From an uncultured Holophagaceae bacterium (GTDB lineage Bacteria > Acidobacteriota > Holophagae > Holophagales > Holophagaceae), in contig CAIZZF010000013.1 of assembly GCA_903937385.1 (NCBI GenBank), positions 62,001-126,000 of the forward strand: DNA of 64,000 nt. The letters run 5' to 3'. The notes below the pieces were generated by a model. That model searched no databases. It was not told the origin of the DNA and saw nothing but the letters and a program-made list of their open reading frames with translations. Both the position numbers and the translations under genes were made by a program. Every line of letters starts with the position of its first letter. Position 1 is the stretch's first letter. Positions 24,446 to 57,115 of the stretch are shown in pieces.

Positions 24446-24472
24446 AGTGGATCTGAACTGAAAAAACGGAAC

Positions 24473-24582
24473 ACCGATGAACACCGATAACTGCTGATCA
24501 AAAGCTGATAAAAAACAACAACCTGTCTCTATGTATTTCATGCATTATCGGTGTTTATCAGCTTTTATCGGTGTTCATCGGT
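24473..24582. repeat. Long extragenic inverted repeat
   Basis: Arms ACCGATGAACACCGATAA (24473-24490) and its exact reverse complement (24565-24582) enclose a 74-base AT-rich loop. Further copies of the CACCGAT and AGCTGATAA words lie inside. It is much more AT-rich than the flanking genes. On the plus strand it ends near a run of seven T (24591-24597), so it may also end transcription of the convergent SDR and MoaD-like genes. Confidence 0.7.
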
Positions 24583-24620
24583 GGTAAGTCTTTTTTTGTT
24601 TCGAAATAGGTGCGCCAGCC

Positions 24621-38636: not shown

Positions 38637-38769
38637 GGGGATCTCCTTCCGCATGTTCAAGCTACGGGCTAGACGCCGCCCCCAAGGCCAAGGATCGGTG
38701 AATAGCGGCCAGCCACCGGCGAAAGGCACGCCTGGGTCCTGCGTGGGGGAGGGGGAAGACAAGCAAAAA

Positions 38770-38856
38770 TTCACCACGAAGACGGGAAGACCACGAAGAA
38801 GAGCAAATGGGGGGTGTTCAGCCTGTCTTTCCTTTGTGGTCTTCCCGTCTTGGTGG
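38770..38856. repeat. Extragenic palindrome, CACGAAGACGGGAAGACC family (copy 1)
   Basis: The left arm TTCACCACGAAGACGGGAAG-ACCACGAAG (38770-38798) is identical over 29 bases to 48842-48870. The right arm (38832-38856) is a near-perfect complement, giving a long hairpin over about 87 bases. The gap 38637-38921 has no gene otherwise; the rest of it is the presumed promoter region of the LiaF operon and the 3' flank of the YigZ gene. Confidence 0.8.
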
Positions 38857-38921
38857 TTATGCCCTTTTCTTTTCTTCGAGTCCTTCTTGGTGGGCCTGTT
38901 CACGTACTCCAGGCCATCCGC

Positions 38922-46948: not shown

Positions 46949-47982
46949 CGCTGCTCACGACCCACAACCCCAGCCGCCCACTGCCCGAGGCCACCGCCTC
47001 GGAGCTCATGCACATCTTCATCGACCAGGACACGGACGCCCTCCTGGTGGGCGCCTGCCTGGCCCTCCTGGCCCAGCGTGTGCCAGAGGCCCACGAGCTG
47101 GCGGCCTTCGCCGATGCCCTCTCGGAGGTGGCCGTGCCCTTTCCGGCGGTGCCGGAAGGCGCCTTGGACACCTGCGGCACCGGCGGCGACGGCTCCTCCA
47201 CCGCCAACCTCAGCACCCTGGCGGCCCTGCTGCTGGCCCACCTGGGCGTGCCGATCGTCAAACACGGCAACCGCGCCGCCACGGGTGTCTGCGGCAGCGC
47301 GGACCTGCTGGAGGCCCTGGGCTACGACCTGGCGCGGCCCAGCGCGGACCTCGCCGAGGATCTGCGCACCCGGAACTTCGCCTTCCTCTTCGCGCCCGCC
47401 TACCACCCGCTGCTGGGTCGCCTGCGGGAGATCCGCAAGCGCCTGGGCATTCCGACGATCTTCAACCTGCTCGGCCCCCTGCTGAACCCGGGCAACCCGC
47501 CGCTGCAGCTGCTGGGCGTGGCCCGCGAGGACCTGGTCGTCCCCATGGCCGGAGCCCTGGCCCGCCGACCCACCCTGAAGCGCGCCTACGTGATTCACGG
47601 CAAGGACGCCGAGGGGAAGGGACTGGACGAGGCCTCCATCGAGGGGCCGACCACCGTGGTGACCGCCATCGACGGCAAGGTGGCCGCGCCCCAGGTGCTG
47701 GTGCCCCGGGAGCTCGGCTTGCAGCCGCCGGTGCGCCATGCCCTCCGTGTGGCGGATCGCGCCGAGGCCCTGGCCGTGGCCCGGGGCCTCTTCGCCGGGG
47801 CCACCCACGCCGACTTCCGGCCCGCCGTGGCGGATGCCGTGGCGTTGCAGGCGGCCCTGGGCCTGCACCTGCACCGGGGGGCAGGACTGGAAGGCTTGGC
47901 CGAGACCCTGCGCGAGACCCGCGCCCAGCTGGACCGCGGCTTCCCGCTGCCCTTCGCCCCCGGCGGCGAGGTGCGCCAGTGA
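46945..47982 (+). CDS. trpD: Anthranilate phosphoribosyltransferase
   Basis: Joins anthranilate and PRPP to give phosphoribosyl-anthranilate. 345 residues. The PRPP loop is DTCGTGGDGSSTANLST, followed by VPIVKHGNRAATGVCGSADLLEALG and FLFAPAYHPLL; RKRLGIPTIFNLLGPLLNP completes the signature. The start overlaps trpG by four bases, and the stop overlaps the trpC GTG start by four. Fourth step order in the operon is E-G-D-C-F-B-A. Confidence 0.96.
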   Translation: MTLLTTHNPSRPLPEATASELMHIFIDQDTDALLVGACLALLAQRVPEAHELAAFADALSEVAVPFPAVPEGALDTCGTGGDGSSTANLSTLAALLLAHLGVPIVKHGNRAATGVCGSADLLEALGYDLARPSADLAEDLRTRNFAFLFAPAYHPLLGRLREIRKRLGIPTIFNLLGPLLNPGNPPLQLLGVAREDLVVPMAGALARRPTLKRAYVIHGKDAEGKGLDEASIEGPTTVVTAIDGKVAAPQVLVPRELGLQPPVRHALRVADRAEALAVARGLFAGATHADFRPAVADAVALQAALGLHLHRGAGLEGLAETLRETRAQLDRGFPLPFAPGGEVRQ

Positions 47983-48815
47983 GCACGCTCCCCGCGCCCG
48001 CCGCCTTCGTCCACGGCTCGGGCCTGCCCGCGAAGTCCCTGCTGCAGCAGGTGCTGGTGGCAGAGCTGGCCCGGGTGGAGTCGCTGCCGCCAGCCCCAGT
48101 GCCAGTCCGGGCTGCGCTCATGGGAAGCGGCCCCTTCGAGTCGGCCCTGCGTCGCGACGCCAAGCTGAAGGGCGGGGCGGTCATCGCGGAGTACAAGCAG
48201 GGCTCGCCCTCCCTGGGACCCTTCGCCGTGGGCACACCGCTGCTGCCCCAGCTGCGGGCCTATGCGGAAGGCGGCGCTGCGGCCTTCTCCATCCTCACGG
48301 AGCCTGCCTATTTCCGGGGCTCCGCCGGGCACCTCCAGGCCGCGGTCGAGCTGGGCGTGCCCCGGCTCTACAAGGGCTTCGTGATCGCCGAGGCGCAGCT
48401 GGCCGAGGCGGAAGCCGCCGGGGCCGAGGCGGTGCTGCTCATCGCCCGGGTGCTGAAGGAACACACCGCGGCCTTCGCTGATGCGGCTCGCAGCCGCGGC
48501 CTCGAGCCCCTCATCGAGCTGCACAACCTCACCGAAGTGGGCTTCGCCCAGGCTGCAGGTGCCCGCCTGGTGGGCATCAATGCCCGCAACCTCTCGACCT
48601 TCACCCTGGGTGCGCCCACGGCGGCCCCGCTGCGCGAGGCCTTCCCCGACGCGGTGCTCATCCGCGAGTCCGGTCTGGCCACCCCCGAGGACGCCCAGGT
48701 GGCGCTGAGGGCGGGCTTCGACGCGGTGCTCATCGGCGAGGCGCTCATGCGCAGTCCCGATCCCCGGGGGTTCCTGGCGCGGCTCCTGACGGGGCTCCGG
48801 GCGGAGGTGCTGTGA
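47979..48815 (+). CDS. trpC: Indole-3-glycerol-phosphate synthase
   Basis: Closes the indole ring from carboxyphenylamino-deoxyribulose phosphate. 278 residues starting at GTG 47979, overlapping trpD (GTGA). Catalytic features: Lys in AEYKQGSPSLG, ILTEPAYFRGS, the second Lys in PRLYKGFVI, Glu in LIELHN and the phosphate loop GINARNLSTF, then IRESGLATPEDA. EYKQGSPS differs slightly from the common EIKRASPS. It is a stand-alone enzyme, not fused to TrpF. It is followed by a 145-base gap with a palindromic repeat before trpF. Confidence 0.95.
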   Translation: MSTLPAPAAFVHGSGLPAKSLLQQVLVAELARVESLPPAPVPVRAALMGSGPFESALRRDAKLKGGAVIAEYKQGSPSLGPFAVGTPLLPQLRAYAEGGAAAFSILTEPAYFRGSAGHLQAAVELGVPRLYKGFVIAEAQLAEAEAAGAEAVLLIARVLKEHTAAFADAARSRGLEPLIELHNLTEVGFAQAAGARLVGINARNLSTFTLGAPTAAPLREAFPDAVLIRESGLATPEDAQVALRAGFDAVLIGEALMRSPDPRGFLARLLTGLRAEVL

Positions 48816-48841
48816 CTCGCCTTTGCACTCAAAGAAAAAGA

Positions 48842-48926
48842 TTCACCACGAAGACGGGAAGACCACGAAGTAGACAATACGGGCAGCGCCTTTTTCTTTT
48901 CTCGTGGTCTTCCTGTCTTCGTGGTG
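48842..48926. repeat. Extragenic palindrome inside the trp operon (copy 2)
   Basis: The left arm (48842-48870) is identical over 29 bases to copy 1 at 38770-38798. The right arm CTCGTGGTCTTCCTGTCTTCGTGGTG (48901-48926, 26 bases) is nearly its reverse complement; a T-rich CTTTTTCTTTTC precedes it. A long hairpin can form between trpC and trpF and may reduce read-through or act on RNA processing. Confidence 0.82.
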
Positions 48927-48960
48927 AGGAGACCATTTCCTCCTTTGCACGGTGCTCGCC

Positions 48961-49581
48961 ATGAGGCTCCTCGCCAAGGTCTGCGGCCTGGTGCAGGCGG
49001 GGGACGCGGCCCAGGCTGCCGCCATGGGCGCGGACCTGCTGGGCTTCGTCAGCCACCTGCCCAGCCCCCGGCACTGCGCAGACCTGACCGTGGCGGCGCC
49101 CTACCTGAACCGCGCGGTGCTGGTGATGGTGGCCGAGGAGGCGGAAGCGATCCTGGCCCTGGCCCGCCGCCACGGCTTCCGCCGCGTGCAGCCCTACCTT
49201 CCGGAGACCGGGCGCGCCGCAGGCGTGGCCCTGCTCCGGGCCGCGGGCCTCTTTGTGCTGCTGCCCTGGGCCGACGAGCCGCACCCGGAGGCGCCCGCCG
49301 CGGATCTCTATCTCTGGGAGGCCAGCCCCGCCCAGACCGGCCTGCCCGGCGGCTCGGGGCAGGGCCACGCCATGGCCTTCCCGCCGCCCGGTCCGTTCCT
49401 GCTGGCCGGGGGTCTCGACGCCAGCAACCTGCCCGGGCGCCTCGCCGCCCTGCCTGAGGCGGTGCTGCCGCAGCTGCGTGGCGCCGACGCCGCCAGCCGC
49501 CTCGAGGCCGCCCCCGGCCGCAAGGACCCCGTCAAAGTCTCCGCCTTCATCTTCAGCGTCCATGAACGGGAGTTCGCATGA
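48961..49581 (+). CDS. trpF: Phosphoribosylanthranilate isomerase
   Basis: Amadori rearrangement of phosphoribosylanthranilate. 206 residues. The N-terminal KVCGL holds the general-base Cys; GFVSHLPSPRH and FLLAGGLDASNL match the phosphate and substrate loops, and ADAASRLEAAPGRKDPVK is the C-terminal phosphate site. Where the general-acid Asp normally sits before the GGTG/GGSG loop, this protein reads LYLWEASP, suggesting Glu in that place. It is a divergent member. ATG 48961 was preferred over GTG 48952. Its stop overlaps the trpB start (ATGA). Confidence 0.88.
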   Translation: MRLLAKVCGLVQAGDAAQAAAMGADLLGFVSHLPSPRHCADLTVAAPYLNRAVLVMVAEEAEAILALARRHGFRRVQPYLPETGRAAGVALLRAAGLFVLLPWADEPHPEAPAADLYLWEASPAQTGLPGGSGQGHAMAFPPPGPFLLAGGLDASNLPGRLAALPEAVLPQLRGADAASRLEAAPGRKDPVKVSAFIFSVHEREFA

Positions 49582-50762
49582 CCCTCGGCTTCACCCTTCC
49601 CGACCGCTTCGGCAGCCAAGCCCTGGGCGGCTGCTATGCCCCGGAGACCCTCGTCCAGCCGCTCCTGGATCTGGAGGCCGCCTTCCGGTCTGCCCTCATG
49701 GATCCAGCCTACATGGCAGAACTCAAGGGCGAGCTGCGGCACTTCGTGGGCCGCCCCACACCGCTGACGCCTGCGCCGCGCCTGGCCGCGCAGCTGGGGC
49801 TGAAGGTCCTGTTCCTGAAGCGGGAGGACCTCACCCACACCGGCGCCCACAAGATCAACAATGCCCTGGCCCAGGCCCTCCTGGCCAAGCGCATGGGCAA
49901 GCACGAGATCATCGCCGAGACCGGCGCGGGCCAGCATGGCGTGGCCACGGCGGCGGCCTGCGCCCGGCTCGGGCTCTCCTGCACGGTCTACATGGGCGTC
50001 ACCGACATGGCGCGACAGGCCCCGAACGTGGCCCGCATGCGACTCTTCGGCGCCAAGGTTGAACCCGTCGAAGCGGGGCAGGGCACCCTCAAGGAGGCCG
50101 TGAACGAGGCCCTCCGCGCCTGGGCCGCCCGCTGCGACCGCGCCCACTACATCCTGGGCTCGGCCCTCGGCCCGCACCCCTTCCCGACCCTGGTGCGCAC
50201 CTTCCAGACCGTCATCGGCGAGGAGGCCCGCGCCCAGATCCTGGAGCAGGCGGGCGCGCTGCCCGAGGTGGTCATCGCCTGCGCCGGCGGCGGCAGCAAC
50301 GGCCTGGGCCTGCTGGTGCCGTTCCTGGGGGACCGCCTGCAGCGAATCGCCGTGGAGGCCGGGGGCCACGGCCCGGATCTGGGGGAGCACGCCGCCCGCC
50401 TCGACGGCGGCCGCATGGGCGTCCTGCACGGCTGCAAGACCCTCCTGCTGCAGGACGACCACGGCCACACGGCCGAGACGGCCAGCATCAGCGCGGGCCT
50501 GGACTACCCGGCCCTGGGGCCGGAGCTCGCGGCCCTGATCCTGGATGACAAGGTCGAGGTGCGCCGCGCCTCGGATGAAGAAGCCCTCACTGCCGCCCGG
50601 CTGCTCTGCCAGGCCGAAGGCATCCTGCCTGCCCTGGAGAGCAGCCACGCCCTGGCGCTGCTGCCCACCCTGGCCGCCGAGGGCGCCGCCACGGTCCTGC
50701 TCGGCCTCAGCGGTCGCGGCGACAAGGACCTGTCCACCTACCAGTCGCGCTCGGGGCTCTGA
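49578..50762 (+). CDS. trpB: Tryptophan synthase beta chain
   Basis: PLP enzyme condensing indole with serine to form tryptophan, in an alpha2-beta2 complex with TrpA. 394 residues, TrpB1 class. FGSQALGGCYAPETL starts the conserved region; the PLP Lys is in THTGAHKINNAL; ETGAGQHGVATA holds the catalytic Glu; CAGGGSNGLG binds the PLP phosphate; SGRGDKDLSTY is near the C-terminus. Coupled to trpF by a four-base overlap and followed by trpA after one base. Confidence 0.97.
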   Translation: MTLGFTLPDRFGSQALGGCYAPETLVQPLLDLEAAFRSALMDPAYMAELKGELRHFVGRPTPLTPAPRLAAQLGLKVLFLKREDLTHTGAHKINNALAQALLAKRMGKHEIIAETGAGQHGVATAAACARLGLSCTVYMGVTDMARQAPNVARMRLFGAKVEPVEAGQGTLKEAVNEALRAWAARCDRAHYILGSALGPHPFPTLVRTFQTVIGEEARAQILEQAGALPEVVIACAGGGSNGLGLLVPFLGDRLQRIAVEAGGHGPDLGEHAARLDGGRMGVLHGCKTLLLQDDHGHTAETASISAGLDYPALGPELAALILDDKVEVRRASDEEALTAARLLCQAEGILPALESSHALALLPTLAAEGAATVLLGLSGRGDKDLSTYQSRSGL

Positions 50763-51519: not shown

Positions 51520-51663
51520 ATAGGGAATGACTGATCCCCCAGATTGCTTGCAGGAGTGGTTGCACCCCTGACGCGATTTGGTATCTTGGTCCATCACCAT
51601 CCTTGCCAAATCGGCTGGAGACAGCCACTCACCCCGGTCACTCGGGACAGGAGTCATGCCCCT

Positions 51664-53163
51664 ATGAGCCATCGTTCGCGTTTCACCCTCACGGCCCTGA
51701 CGTTGGTCGCTGCTGCGGCCTTCGCCCCCCAGGCGCAGGCCAGTGGTTTCCAGCTCCGGGAGCAGAGCCCGCTCTCCCTGGGCAACGCGTTCGGTGGCAT
51801 CAGCGCGGGTGGTGGTGACATCAGCTCGCTCTACTTCAACCCTGCGGTGATGACCCAGTACGACGGCATCCAGTTCTCCTCCGGTGGCACCTACATCGGC
51901 CTGAGCGCGAGCTTCAAGGACGCCACCGCGTCCCGCACGCCCGTGATCACGGGGCTCGGCTTCCAGGTCTCGCCCATCACCGGTTCCGCGCTGAGCCCGA
52001 TCTCGGGCCCCTCCGGCCACGGCAATGCGGCCATCTCGGCGGTGCTCCCTGAGTTCAACATCATGTACAGCGTGAGCGACGACCTGAAGATCGGGCTCTC
52101 GCTGAATGTCCCCTACGGCCTGGCCACGGAATACGACGCCAACTGGATCGGCCGCTACCACGCCCTGAAGACCGACCTGAAGACCATCGACATCAGCCCC
52201 AGCATCGCCTGGCGGCTGTCGAAGGAGTTCAGCTTCGGCGTGGCCCTGATCGCCCGCCGCGCGGACGCAGAGCTCTCCAACGGTGTGGACTTCGGCACCG
52301 CCCTGGCCCTGAAGGTGGCACCGGCGCTGGCCGCTGCTGGCATGTCTCCGGTCTCGCCCGGCGTGGGCCAGAACAGCCCCGTGGCGACTGTGGCCATGGG
52401 CGCCCCCAGCGCCGTGCTGGGCACGCCCGGCTACGCGATTCCCGGCGCCTGGGATGGGACCGCGGGCCTCAAGGGTGGCTGCTGGGCCTACGGCTACAAG
52501 CTGGGCCTGACCTACGAGCCCTCCAAGAACTTCCGCATGGGCCTGGCCTTCAACGCTTCCATGTCCATGACCCTCACGGGTGATGCCGAGTTTGCCTACC
52601 CCTCCGCCATTCCGGCCACGGACCTCGGGGCCCTCCAGGCTGCGGGCCTCAAGAACGGCGGCGGTCAGGCCGAGCTCAACCTCCCGGCCACCACGTCCCT
52701 GGGCTTCGACTGGAAGGTGAGTCCGACCGTTTCCCTGCAGGGCGAGCTGGCCCGCACGAACTGGTCCACCTTCAAGGAACTGCGTGTGCACTTCGCCTCT
52801 GGCGCACCGGACTCCGTCACGGACGAGAGCTGGAAGGACAGCACCTTCTCCTCCCTGGGAATCACCTGGAAGAAGAGTGACGCCCTGACCCTGCGGGCAG
52901 GCCTGGCCCTCGACACCAGCGCCGTGGATGACAACCACCGCACGCCCCGCATCCCCGACAACGACCGCAAGTGGGTCTCCATCGGTGCCAGCTACCAGCT
53001 GACCAAGAAGATGGCCGTCGACATCGGCTACAGCCGCCTCTTCATCGCGGATGGCAAGACCCAGCTCACCGCCGCCAACGACAACGTCACCCGCGGCACC
53101 CTCAACGGCACCATCGTGGCCAACATCCACTTGATGGGCGCCGCGCTGCGCTACACCTTCTAG
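51664..53163 (+). CDS. FadL/OmpP1/TodX-family outer-membrane transporter
   Basis: A 499-residue outer-membrane beta-barrel for long-chain fatty acids or other hydrophobic compounds. Signal peptide about residues 1-26 (ALTLVAAAAFAPQAQASG), then FQLREQSPLSLGNAFGG, the conserved FadL hatch segment, and YFNPAVM (NPA motif). It ends in an aromatic residue (RYTF) as OM barrels do. A Gly/Ala/Pro-rich insert lies about residues 215-265. ATG 51664 was chosen at the signal peptide; the ORF extends upstream without support. A convergent thiolase gene may use acyl products, but that is inference. Confidence 0.9.
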   Translation: MSHRSRFTLTALTLVAAAAFAPQAQASGFQLREQSPLSLGNAFGGISAGGGDISSLYFNPAVMTQYDGIQFSSGGTYIGLSASFKDATASRTPVITGLGFQVSPITGSALSPISGPSGHGNAAISAVLPEFNIMYSVSDDLKIGLSLNVPYGLATEYDANWIGRYHALKTDLKTIDISPSIAWRLSKEFSFGVALIARRADAELSNGVDFGTALALKVAPALAAAGMSPVSPGVGQNSPVATVAMGAPSAVLGTPGYAIPGAWDGTAGLKGGCWAYGYKLGLTYEPSKNFRMGLAFNASMSMTLTGDAEFAYPSAIPATDLGALQAAGLKNGGGQAELNLPATTSLGFDWKVSPTVSLQGELARTNWSTFKELRVHFASGAPDSVTDESWKDSTFSSLGITWKKSDALTLRAGLALDTSAVDDNHRTPRIPDNDRKWVSIGASYQLTKKMAVDIGYSRLFIADGKTQLTAANDNVTRGTLNGTIVANIHLMGAALRYTF

Positions 53164-53178
53164 TCGAACCTCTCAGTC

Positions 53179-53212
53179 AATAAGAAGGCCCGGCATGCCG
53201 GGCCTTCTTATT
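53179..53212. terminator. Bidirectional terminator between fadL-type and thiolase genes
   Basis: A perfect 34-base palindrome (17-bp arms, 53179-53195 with 53196-53212) with A-rich start and T-rich end sits 15 bases after the porin stop and 21 before the thiolase stop, so it can end both converging transcripts. Confidence 0.88.
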
Positions 53213-53233
53213 GCTGTTTGCCGAAAAGGGATA

Positions 53234-56962: not shown

Positions 56963-57005
56963 CCCCTGCTTCTCGGCGGTTCGAGCCCGCCTCCTCTTCA
57001 GTCCA

Positions 57006-57041
57006 CCAATGAAAAGGGGCCCGAGGGCCCCTTTTCATTGG
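57006..57041. terminator. Perfect palindrome at the tRNA-Met 3' end
   Basis: 17-bp arms (57006-57022 with 57025-57041) and a 2-base centre. On the minus strand it starts with the encoded CCA of tRNA-Met and continues through GGGGCCC to TTTTCATTGG. It probably terminates the tRNA transcript and possibly the small plus-strand gene. Confidence 0.75.
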
Positions 57042-57115
57042 TGGCTGGAGGCGGACTCGAACCGCCGACCTGCGGATTATGAGACCGCTGCTCTAACCAG
57101 CTGAGCTACCCAGCC
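57039..57115 (-). tRNA. tRNA-Met (anticodon CAT, probably elongator)
   Basis: A 77-nt cloverleaf: acceptor GGCTGGG pairs with TCCAGCC (one G-U), D-arm TAGCTCAGCTGGTTAGAGCA, anticodon loop CTCATAA, T-arm GGCGGTTCGAGTCCGCC, discriminator A and encoded CCA. The loop and acceptor resemble elongator Met; an Ile tRNA with lysidine-modified CAT cannot be fully excluded. Confidence 0.92.

Follow-up and report, generated by a model that had tools for sequence, protein, structure and literature searches.

The hairpin that separates trpC from trpF in the window (the whole stretch of 64,000 nt analyzed here) has inserted into the trp operon of the source genome and belongs to a family of palindromes dispersed through that genome. 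It is read here as a non-autonomous, MITE-like derivative of cassettes in which similar inverted arms enclose a gene of the GxxExxY family, whose predicted nuclease would move or convert the palindromes; the probability of this reading is put at roughly two in three. The comparison of arms lends good support to a derivation from GxxExxY cassettes; that the GxxExxY nuclease moves the hairpins is a tentative hypothesis that may well prove wrong. The link between arms and GxxExxY genes, drawn from sequence comparison, is new relative to the original prediction for this DNA.

An insertion between trpC and trpF

Pfam matches give the gene order trpE-G-D-C-F-B-A. The features of the trpC-trpF junction, in window positions, are as follows.

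47979-48815 (+): trpC, IGPS match at E 1.1e-52, with GTG 47979 taken as start
48816-48960 (+): insert between trpC and trpF, lineage-specific and missing in 29/29 relatives
48820-48828 (+): direct repeat CCTTTGCAC, left copy, 9 nt, possible target duplication
48843-48868 (+): left arm, units ACCACGAAG-ACGGGAAG-ACCACGAAG, the last unit extending to 48870
48869-48901 (+): loop, 33 nt without a gene, in the position of the GxxExxY gene in full-length cassettes (compare loci L129 and L155)
48902-48927 (+): right arm, complement of the left arm
48942-48950 (+): direct repeat CCTTTGCAC, right copy, 9 nt, possible target duplication
48961-49581 (+): trpF, PRAI match at E 8.5e-7 (a weak assignment, 29.3 bits against a cut-off of 22.7), with the ORF intact 3' of the insert

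As originally described, the other trp junctions overlap or abut: 4-nt overlaps join E/G, G/D, F/B and, with the GTG 47979 start, D/C, and a 1-nt gap separates the trpB TGA (50760-50762) from the trpA ATG (50764). The reported 145-nt gap with its 85-nt hairpin is also confirmed, lying between the trpC end at 48815 and the trpF ATG at 48961, with an in-frame GTG at 48952 as a possible alternative start. The hairpin (48843-48927) has 26-nt arms that are 96% complementary around a 33-nt loop, and the spacer RNA folds at -67.2 kcal/mol (z -8.3), a stability equaled by 0/200 shuffles. The identity noted between the left arm and a stretch some 10 kb away is exact over the 29-mer 48842-48870, which recurs at 38770-38798, 10,072 nt distant (0 in 100 shuffles). 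A typical intrinsic terminator was rejected on account of the 33-nt loop and the missing T run after 48927; a terminator scan confined to loops of 3-8 nt does not list the hairpin. A known RNA family was likewise rejected, all Rfam matches in the spacer being sub-threshold microRNA models and none lying near the cut-off, and a DNA similarity search of the trp region gave no plasmid match.

For comparison, trpF was searched in 46 other genomes of the genus; 44 gave a match, and the best 29 were compared together with their flanks. The nearest relatives by trpF share 91% protein identity (among the best 29 of 44). Because all 29 keep a 4-nt trpC/trpF overlap and the insert occurs in the source genome (G000) only, the trp hairpin is, on this comparison, a lineage-specific insertion that postdates the divergence from the relatives sampled. 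The earlier suggestion that a small mobile palindrome inserted recently is supported by the very comparison of related junctions proposed for it: the gap is not conserved, 29/29 relatives lack the insert, and dozens of copies lie elsewhere in the genome.

Whether the 9-nt repeat CCTTTGCAC represents a target duplication was considered at the junction and across the family. Flank repeats of at least 9 nt occur in 0.4% of mismatched flank pairs. The word is absent from the trpC/trpF junctions of 29/29 relatives (24 nt each) and present in the trp locus of one of the 29, away from the junction. No general target duplication was found in the family, repeats of at least 8 nt flanking 1/28 copies vs 2% of mismatched pairs. 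A clean target duplication at trp is doubtful, since CCTTTGCAC is missing at the relatives' junctions and no rule emerges over 28 copies. The words GGTGCT and CTCGCC also occur on either side of the insert, so that a duplication of the junction is conceivable.

The original prediction had also proposed that the element may tune trpFBA expression relative to trpEGDC. As read from the sequence, the insert abolishes the trpC/trpF overlap and adds a 26-bp RNA stem; because the overlap is removed, translational coupling of the two genes is probably lost, and both decoupling and RNase III cleavage at the hairpin are possible. A regulatory element selected for lowering or separating trpFBA expression, as an RNase III site, attenuator or decoupler, would fit the very stable stem, the removal of the overlap, and the lack of an obvious Shine-Dalgarno sequence directly 5' of ATG 48961 on inspection. 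A conserved regulatory role is nevertheless argued against by the absence of the insert from all 29 relatives, and the presence of the same hairpin at dozens of further places and the lack of any Rfam family near its cut-off also make selection for regulation improbable. An altered trpF dose is plausible as a by-product, and any tuning of trpFBA is probably a side effect of the insertion.

A dispersed family of palindromes

A search of the source genome, in which 40 of the 50 first-look candidates were scored, returned at least 63 matching stretches, which merge into 32 places and, with the trp copy, give at least 33; further searches list a few more. Family matches were found in 20/24 relatives of the genus and in 0/16 genomes outside it. 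According to a crude gene finder, 16 of the 32 places lie between convergent and 15 between co-directional genes, none between divergent genes and none within a gene, with one side of the remaining place off the contig, the class being less sure for 5/32 places that have, on one side, no called gene within 400 nt. The trp hairpin is thus one copy of a dispersed extragenic palindrome that is short and non-coding, with inverted ends and many copies. Two further hairpins lie in the window.

38765-38857 (+): another copy of the trp-type palindrome; at the orthologous position, three relatives have other hairpins
24461-24594 (+): hairpin built of units of a second type, GAACACCGATGAACACCGATAACTGCTGAT; in the relative G023, arms of this type surround a GxxExxY gene (L167)

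In GTDB genomes, from which the own or near genomes may be excluded, the exact 29-nt pattern occurs in 51 stretches, 44 of them in records named Holophagaceae or Geothrix. The other seven lie in an Odyssella MAG (two), Methylobacter, Sumerlaeota, Latescibacterota, Acetobacteraceae and a gammaproteobacterial MAG; contigs of the outlying MAGs may be mis-binned, and Methylobacter tundripaludum is a named strain. Its hairpin (L114:5216-5365) has a left arm enlarged to several tandem ACCACGAAG units.

In size, hairpin form, copy number and position, with no copies in divergent spacers and none within genes, the family resembles REP elements, which are moved by RAYT (Y1) transposases, and relative G014 combines hairpin matches with a Y1 gene. 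The transposase profile PF01797, however, has no match in the source genome (97.8% complete) and is present in only 5/47 genomes of the genus, none being found in the hairpin-rich G000, G005, G019 and G008. An origin by RAYT was rejected for lack of a PF01797 transposase in the source genome and is considered very improbable.

Two other inverted structures were seen in the window. An inverted pair at 56973-57068 adjoins tRNA-Met (57039-57115, minus strand), whose 3' end stands opposite a reverse-complement copy of itself lying outside the tRNA; this pair is possibly the trace of an integrated element. A perfect, loopless 18-bp palindrome at 53178-53213 lies just 3' of the ORF 51544-53163.

Inverted arms around GxxExxY genes

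GxxExxY genes often adjoin repeats of this kind. A profile search places TIGR04256 in 40/47 genomes of the genus, and in G001 a GxxExxY gene lies between two trp-type arms at carA-carB. Loci were scored by the best ungapped inverted repeat between the 220 nt upstream and the 220 nt downstream of the gene. In an exploratory set of 40 loci from 12 genomes of the genus, on which the threshold of 14 was itself chosen, 33 reached that score, compared with 0/29 trpF controls and 1/111 shifted positions. Because this set was exploratory, the test was repeated on other genera under the same rule: from the 30 best loci of the phylum, one already included and three of the genus were dropped, and 22 of the remaining 26 were armed (shifted positions 0/159, shuffles 0/580). 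The genes below threshold accordingly number 7/40 in the genus and 4/26 in the phylum set.

Beyond the phylum, 4/8 plasmid-borne GxxExxY genes are armed (Bacteroides, Sphingomonas, Bernardetia and Gemmatirosa), those of Fusobacteria, Prevotella, Treponema and Persicobacter being unarmed. The Sphingomonas cassette sits between fabD and fabG, and the Gemmatirosa locus has an additional complete hairpin downstream. A single-protein query found no GxxExxY gene in viral contigs; a profile search of IMG/VR gave five loci, two of them armed. None was found in a phage collection.

Each arm typically comprises some three tandem units, 8-12 nt long, whose type varies among loci; this build was judged by eye, and a few passing loci (L141, L160 and L208) do not look unit-like. 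Protein identity and arm similarity are correlated (Mantel r 0.51, pairs across genomes among 61 loci scoring at least 14), a value reached in 0/5000 permutations (maximum 0.25). With a self-chosen clade cut-off, the largest protein clade has mainly units that resemble ACCACNNAG or ACCGCNNAG, as in trp, along with some arms like ACGGAA, GCGGAG and AACGGAG. Units in the smaller clades resemble GAACACCGAT or CATCACCG, CAGGATTAA, or CGCAGAT, with ACGAAGG-like units also present in the CGCAGAT clade. Co-inheritance of arm and gene accounts for part of the correlation and could by itself produce it. Since the motif is kept while the proteins diverge to about 50% identity, the data point to constraint on the arm motif.

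In G152 (L216-L234), the GxxExxY palindrome lies within a longer repeat, several hundred bases in size and insertion-sequence-like by eye, and near-identical GxxExxY fragments, truncated to different lengths, have multiplied along with it. That these fragments are amplified deletion forms was rejected; they are hitch-hikers in the longer repeat.

The trp arms are shared with GxxExxY cassettes at the carA-carB junction. Positions 48845-48870 of the left arm agree in 26/26 nt with cassettes L155, L099 and L283 and in 25/26 with L108 and L109, and positions 48901-48926 of the right arm agree in 25/26 nt with all five, the AGG middle unit included. The five loci represent four genomes, L099 and L283 being the same DNA and L109 separate (among further duplicates, L108 is the G055 locus and L115 the G001 locus). 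In these trp-like cassettes, the GxxExxY frame opens at an ATG overlapping the carA stop. The trp copy is classed as a derivative, not as a full cassette, because its loop holds only 33 nt and no GxxExxY gene.

Among the best 30 carA-carB loci from 47 genomes searched, 15 are empty with an 8-nt overlap, 12 hold a hairpin, and 3 a hairpin with a GxxExxY gene. The hairpin-only loci span 82-102 nt and, by eye, have units of CGCAGAT (6), CGCAGAG (5) or CACAGAT (1); the three loci with the gene have ACCACGAAG arms. On the carB tree, the empty state needs nine changes, at least eight of which are forced by well-supported branches, and is no more clustered than shuffled labels (127/500 as low). These changes may reflect recurrent insertion, loss or exchange between species. 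The junction has the appearance of a hot site, its three states alternating among close species (L273-L302).

Turnover is also seen between G000 and G023. For 8 of the 32 sites in the source genome, both flanks were present in the G023 DNA searched (40 pieces and three loci). At five of the eight, the G023 hairpin scores at least 14, as do six of the eight source-genome copies, compared with 3/300 random stretches. The other three G023 sites hold a weaker CGCAGAT hairpin (L031), a one-armed remnant (L027) and another repeat type (L021). The flanks are 89-99% identical, and the unit type, judged by eye, often differs. Shared flanks with differing unit types fit homing or conversion, which would give sites that persist while the palindrome is exchanged whole; repeated loss and insertion is a possible alternative.

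In the source genome, the sole GxxExxY gene found (G000:C8:225025, L138) has no arms, and the hairpins of this strain are therefore tied to a putative GxxExxY mover through the identity of their arms with the relatives' cassettes. The carA-carB junction of G000 is uninformative on the presence of a cassette because the N-terminus of carB is missing from the assembly (best match E 2.1e-6), which is otherwise 97.8% complete.

These observations bear on whether other machinery, such as host repair or another transposase, moves the hairpins, GxxExxY being a passenger or a homing-type nuclease settled in palindromes. The numbers of hairpin matches and GxxExxY genes per genome show no correlation (rho 0.08, p 0.70, 25 genomes), and no GxxExxY gene was found in the hairpin-bearing G005, G012 and G002, the first two being only about 85% complete. 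The same arm design also surrounds the unrelated PF05635 family (23S_rRNA_IVP, a four-helix bundle), whose genes lie between inverted arrays of tandem units, about 7 nt per unit. Among the best 30 PF05635 loci of the phylum (L348-L377), 28 are armed, with 0/195 shifted positions and 0/600 shuffles; in the genus, 4/5 testable loci are (L132-L136), L137 being too short. Cassettes with tandem-unit arms thus appear to follow a general design, common to GxxExxY and PF05635 alike. An arm type that tracks GxxExxY similarity across genomes and the arming of 22/26 GxxExxY genes outside the genus are, however, hardly expected of a casual passenger, so that other machinery is considered unlikely, though less so than the REP or regulatory explanations.

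The predicted nuclease and comparison with known systems

To our knowledge, no clear role has been established for GxxExxY or PF05635, two widespread families of small proteins. GxxExxY corresponds to PF13366 (PDDEXK_3; match at E 2.9e-43) and TIGR04256. The residues G, E, Y, D, E, K, Q and Y are invariant in 32 diverse rows and form E, D, ExK and QxxxY motifs. An AlphaFold model from an eight-row alignment has a pLDDT of 94. Foldseek against the PDB gives no match at E ≤ 0.001; the best is 4ic1 (SSO0001), a Cas4 protein, at E 0.02 and TM 0.56-0.59. VIA-align also ranks 4ic1 first (Z 9.7), all other rows reaching at most 7.6, rated middling by the tool, and comprising restriction-type, Hjc, Cas4 and AddAB-type nucleases with a few non-nucleases. 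A sequence search of the PDB found no relative (best 2f8l at E 0.24). With the modeled PD-(D/E)XK fold and the E/D/ExK active site, GxxExxY qualifies as a predicted nuclease, and a minimal nuclease of Cas4/RecB type is the natural reading of the model.

Comparison across genomes shows that arms and GxxExxY gene form one unit in many of them, that hairpins are placed 3' of genes and at operon junctions, and that a single junction, carA-carB, can be empty, hold a hairpin, or hold a hairpin with the gene. In the mechanism proposed for the derivation from GxxExxY cassettes, the nuclease would recognize the arms, probably as a hairpin or cruciform, and cut; repair would copy the palindrome into a new site or convert a resident one; and gene-less copies would be mobilized in trans or persist as relics. 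More broadly, the loci could represent a new class of mobile elements, a proposal that is conceivable yet open to considerable doubt: palindromic cassettes with clade-specific tandem units, moved or used for homing or conversion by a minimal Cas4-like GxxExxY nuclease, with hairpin-only copies as non-autonomous members, a parallel class built on PF05635, and unit types of both arms swapped whole between species at occupied sites. The association would give GxxExxY and PF05635 a testable role and dispersed hairpins candidate partner genes, with GxxExxY as the leading candidate for the mover or keeper of these palindromes; the three states of carA-carB in close relatives offer a natural experiment.

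The literature searched, a limited library beyond which the link may be published, yielded no connection between GxxExxY and palindromic arms and no match for the name PDDEXK_3. Arm sequences searched as text matched only a fish eDNA paper, and the mention of GxxExxY in the available part of PMC8934634 is unrelated. Geobacter genomes contain multicopy nucleotide sequences, described in the available parts of three papers as intergenic families of palindromes or short direct repeats (PMC2996986; PMC2700814; PMC3543383). The same parts of these papers (PMC2996986, PMC2700814, PMC3543383) draw no link to GxxExxY, and the likeness to the trp family is one of description only.

Among known systems, the GxxExxY/PDDEXK_3 loci share their arm type with the trp hairpin, which differs from them in having no gene. 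REP, BIME and REPIN elements with their RAYTs are short dispersed palindromes found mainly 3' of genes and within operons, and the trp family is likewise dispersed as short palindromes 3' of genes and in operons. Unlike the REP/RAYT system, it has arms of about three units and no Y1 transposase was found with it, and similar arms elsewhere enclose GxxExxY. MITEs are non-coding, multicopy elements with inverted terminal repeats, whose ends are common to a gene-bearing relative. The trp family departs from them in that no general target duplication was found and its partner gene encodes a nuclease-like GxxExxY protein instead of a DDE transposase; it is MITE-like in that the trp hairpin shares its ends with gene-bearing, putatively autonomous GxxExxY cassettes at carA-carB.
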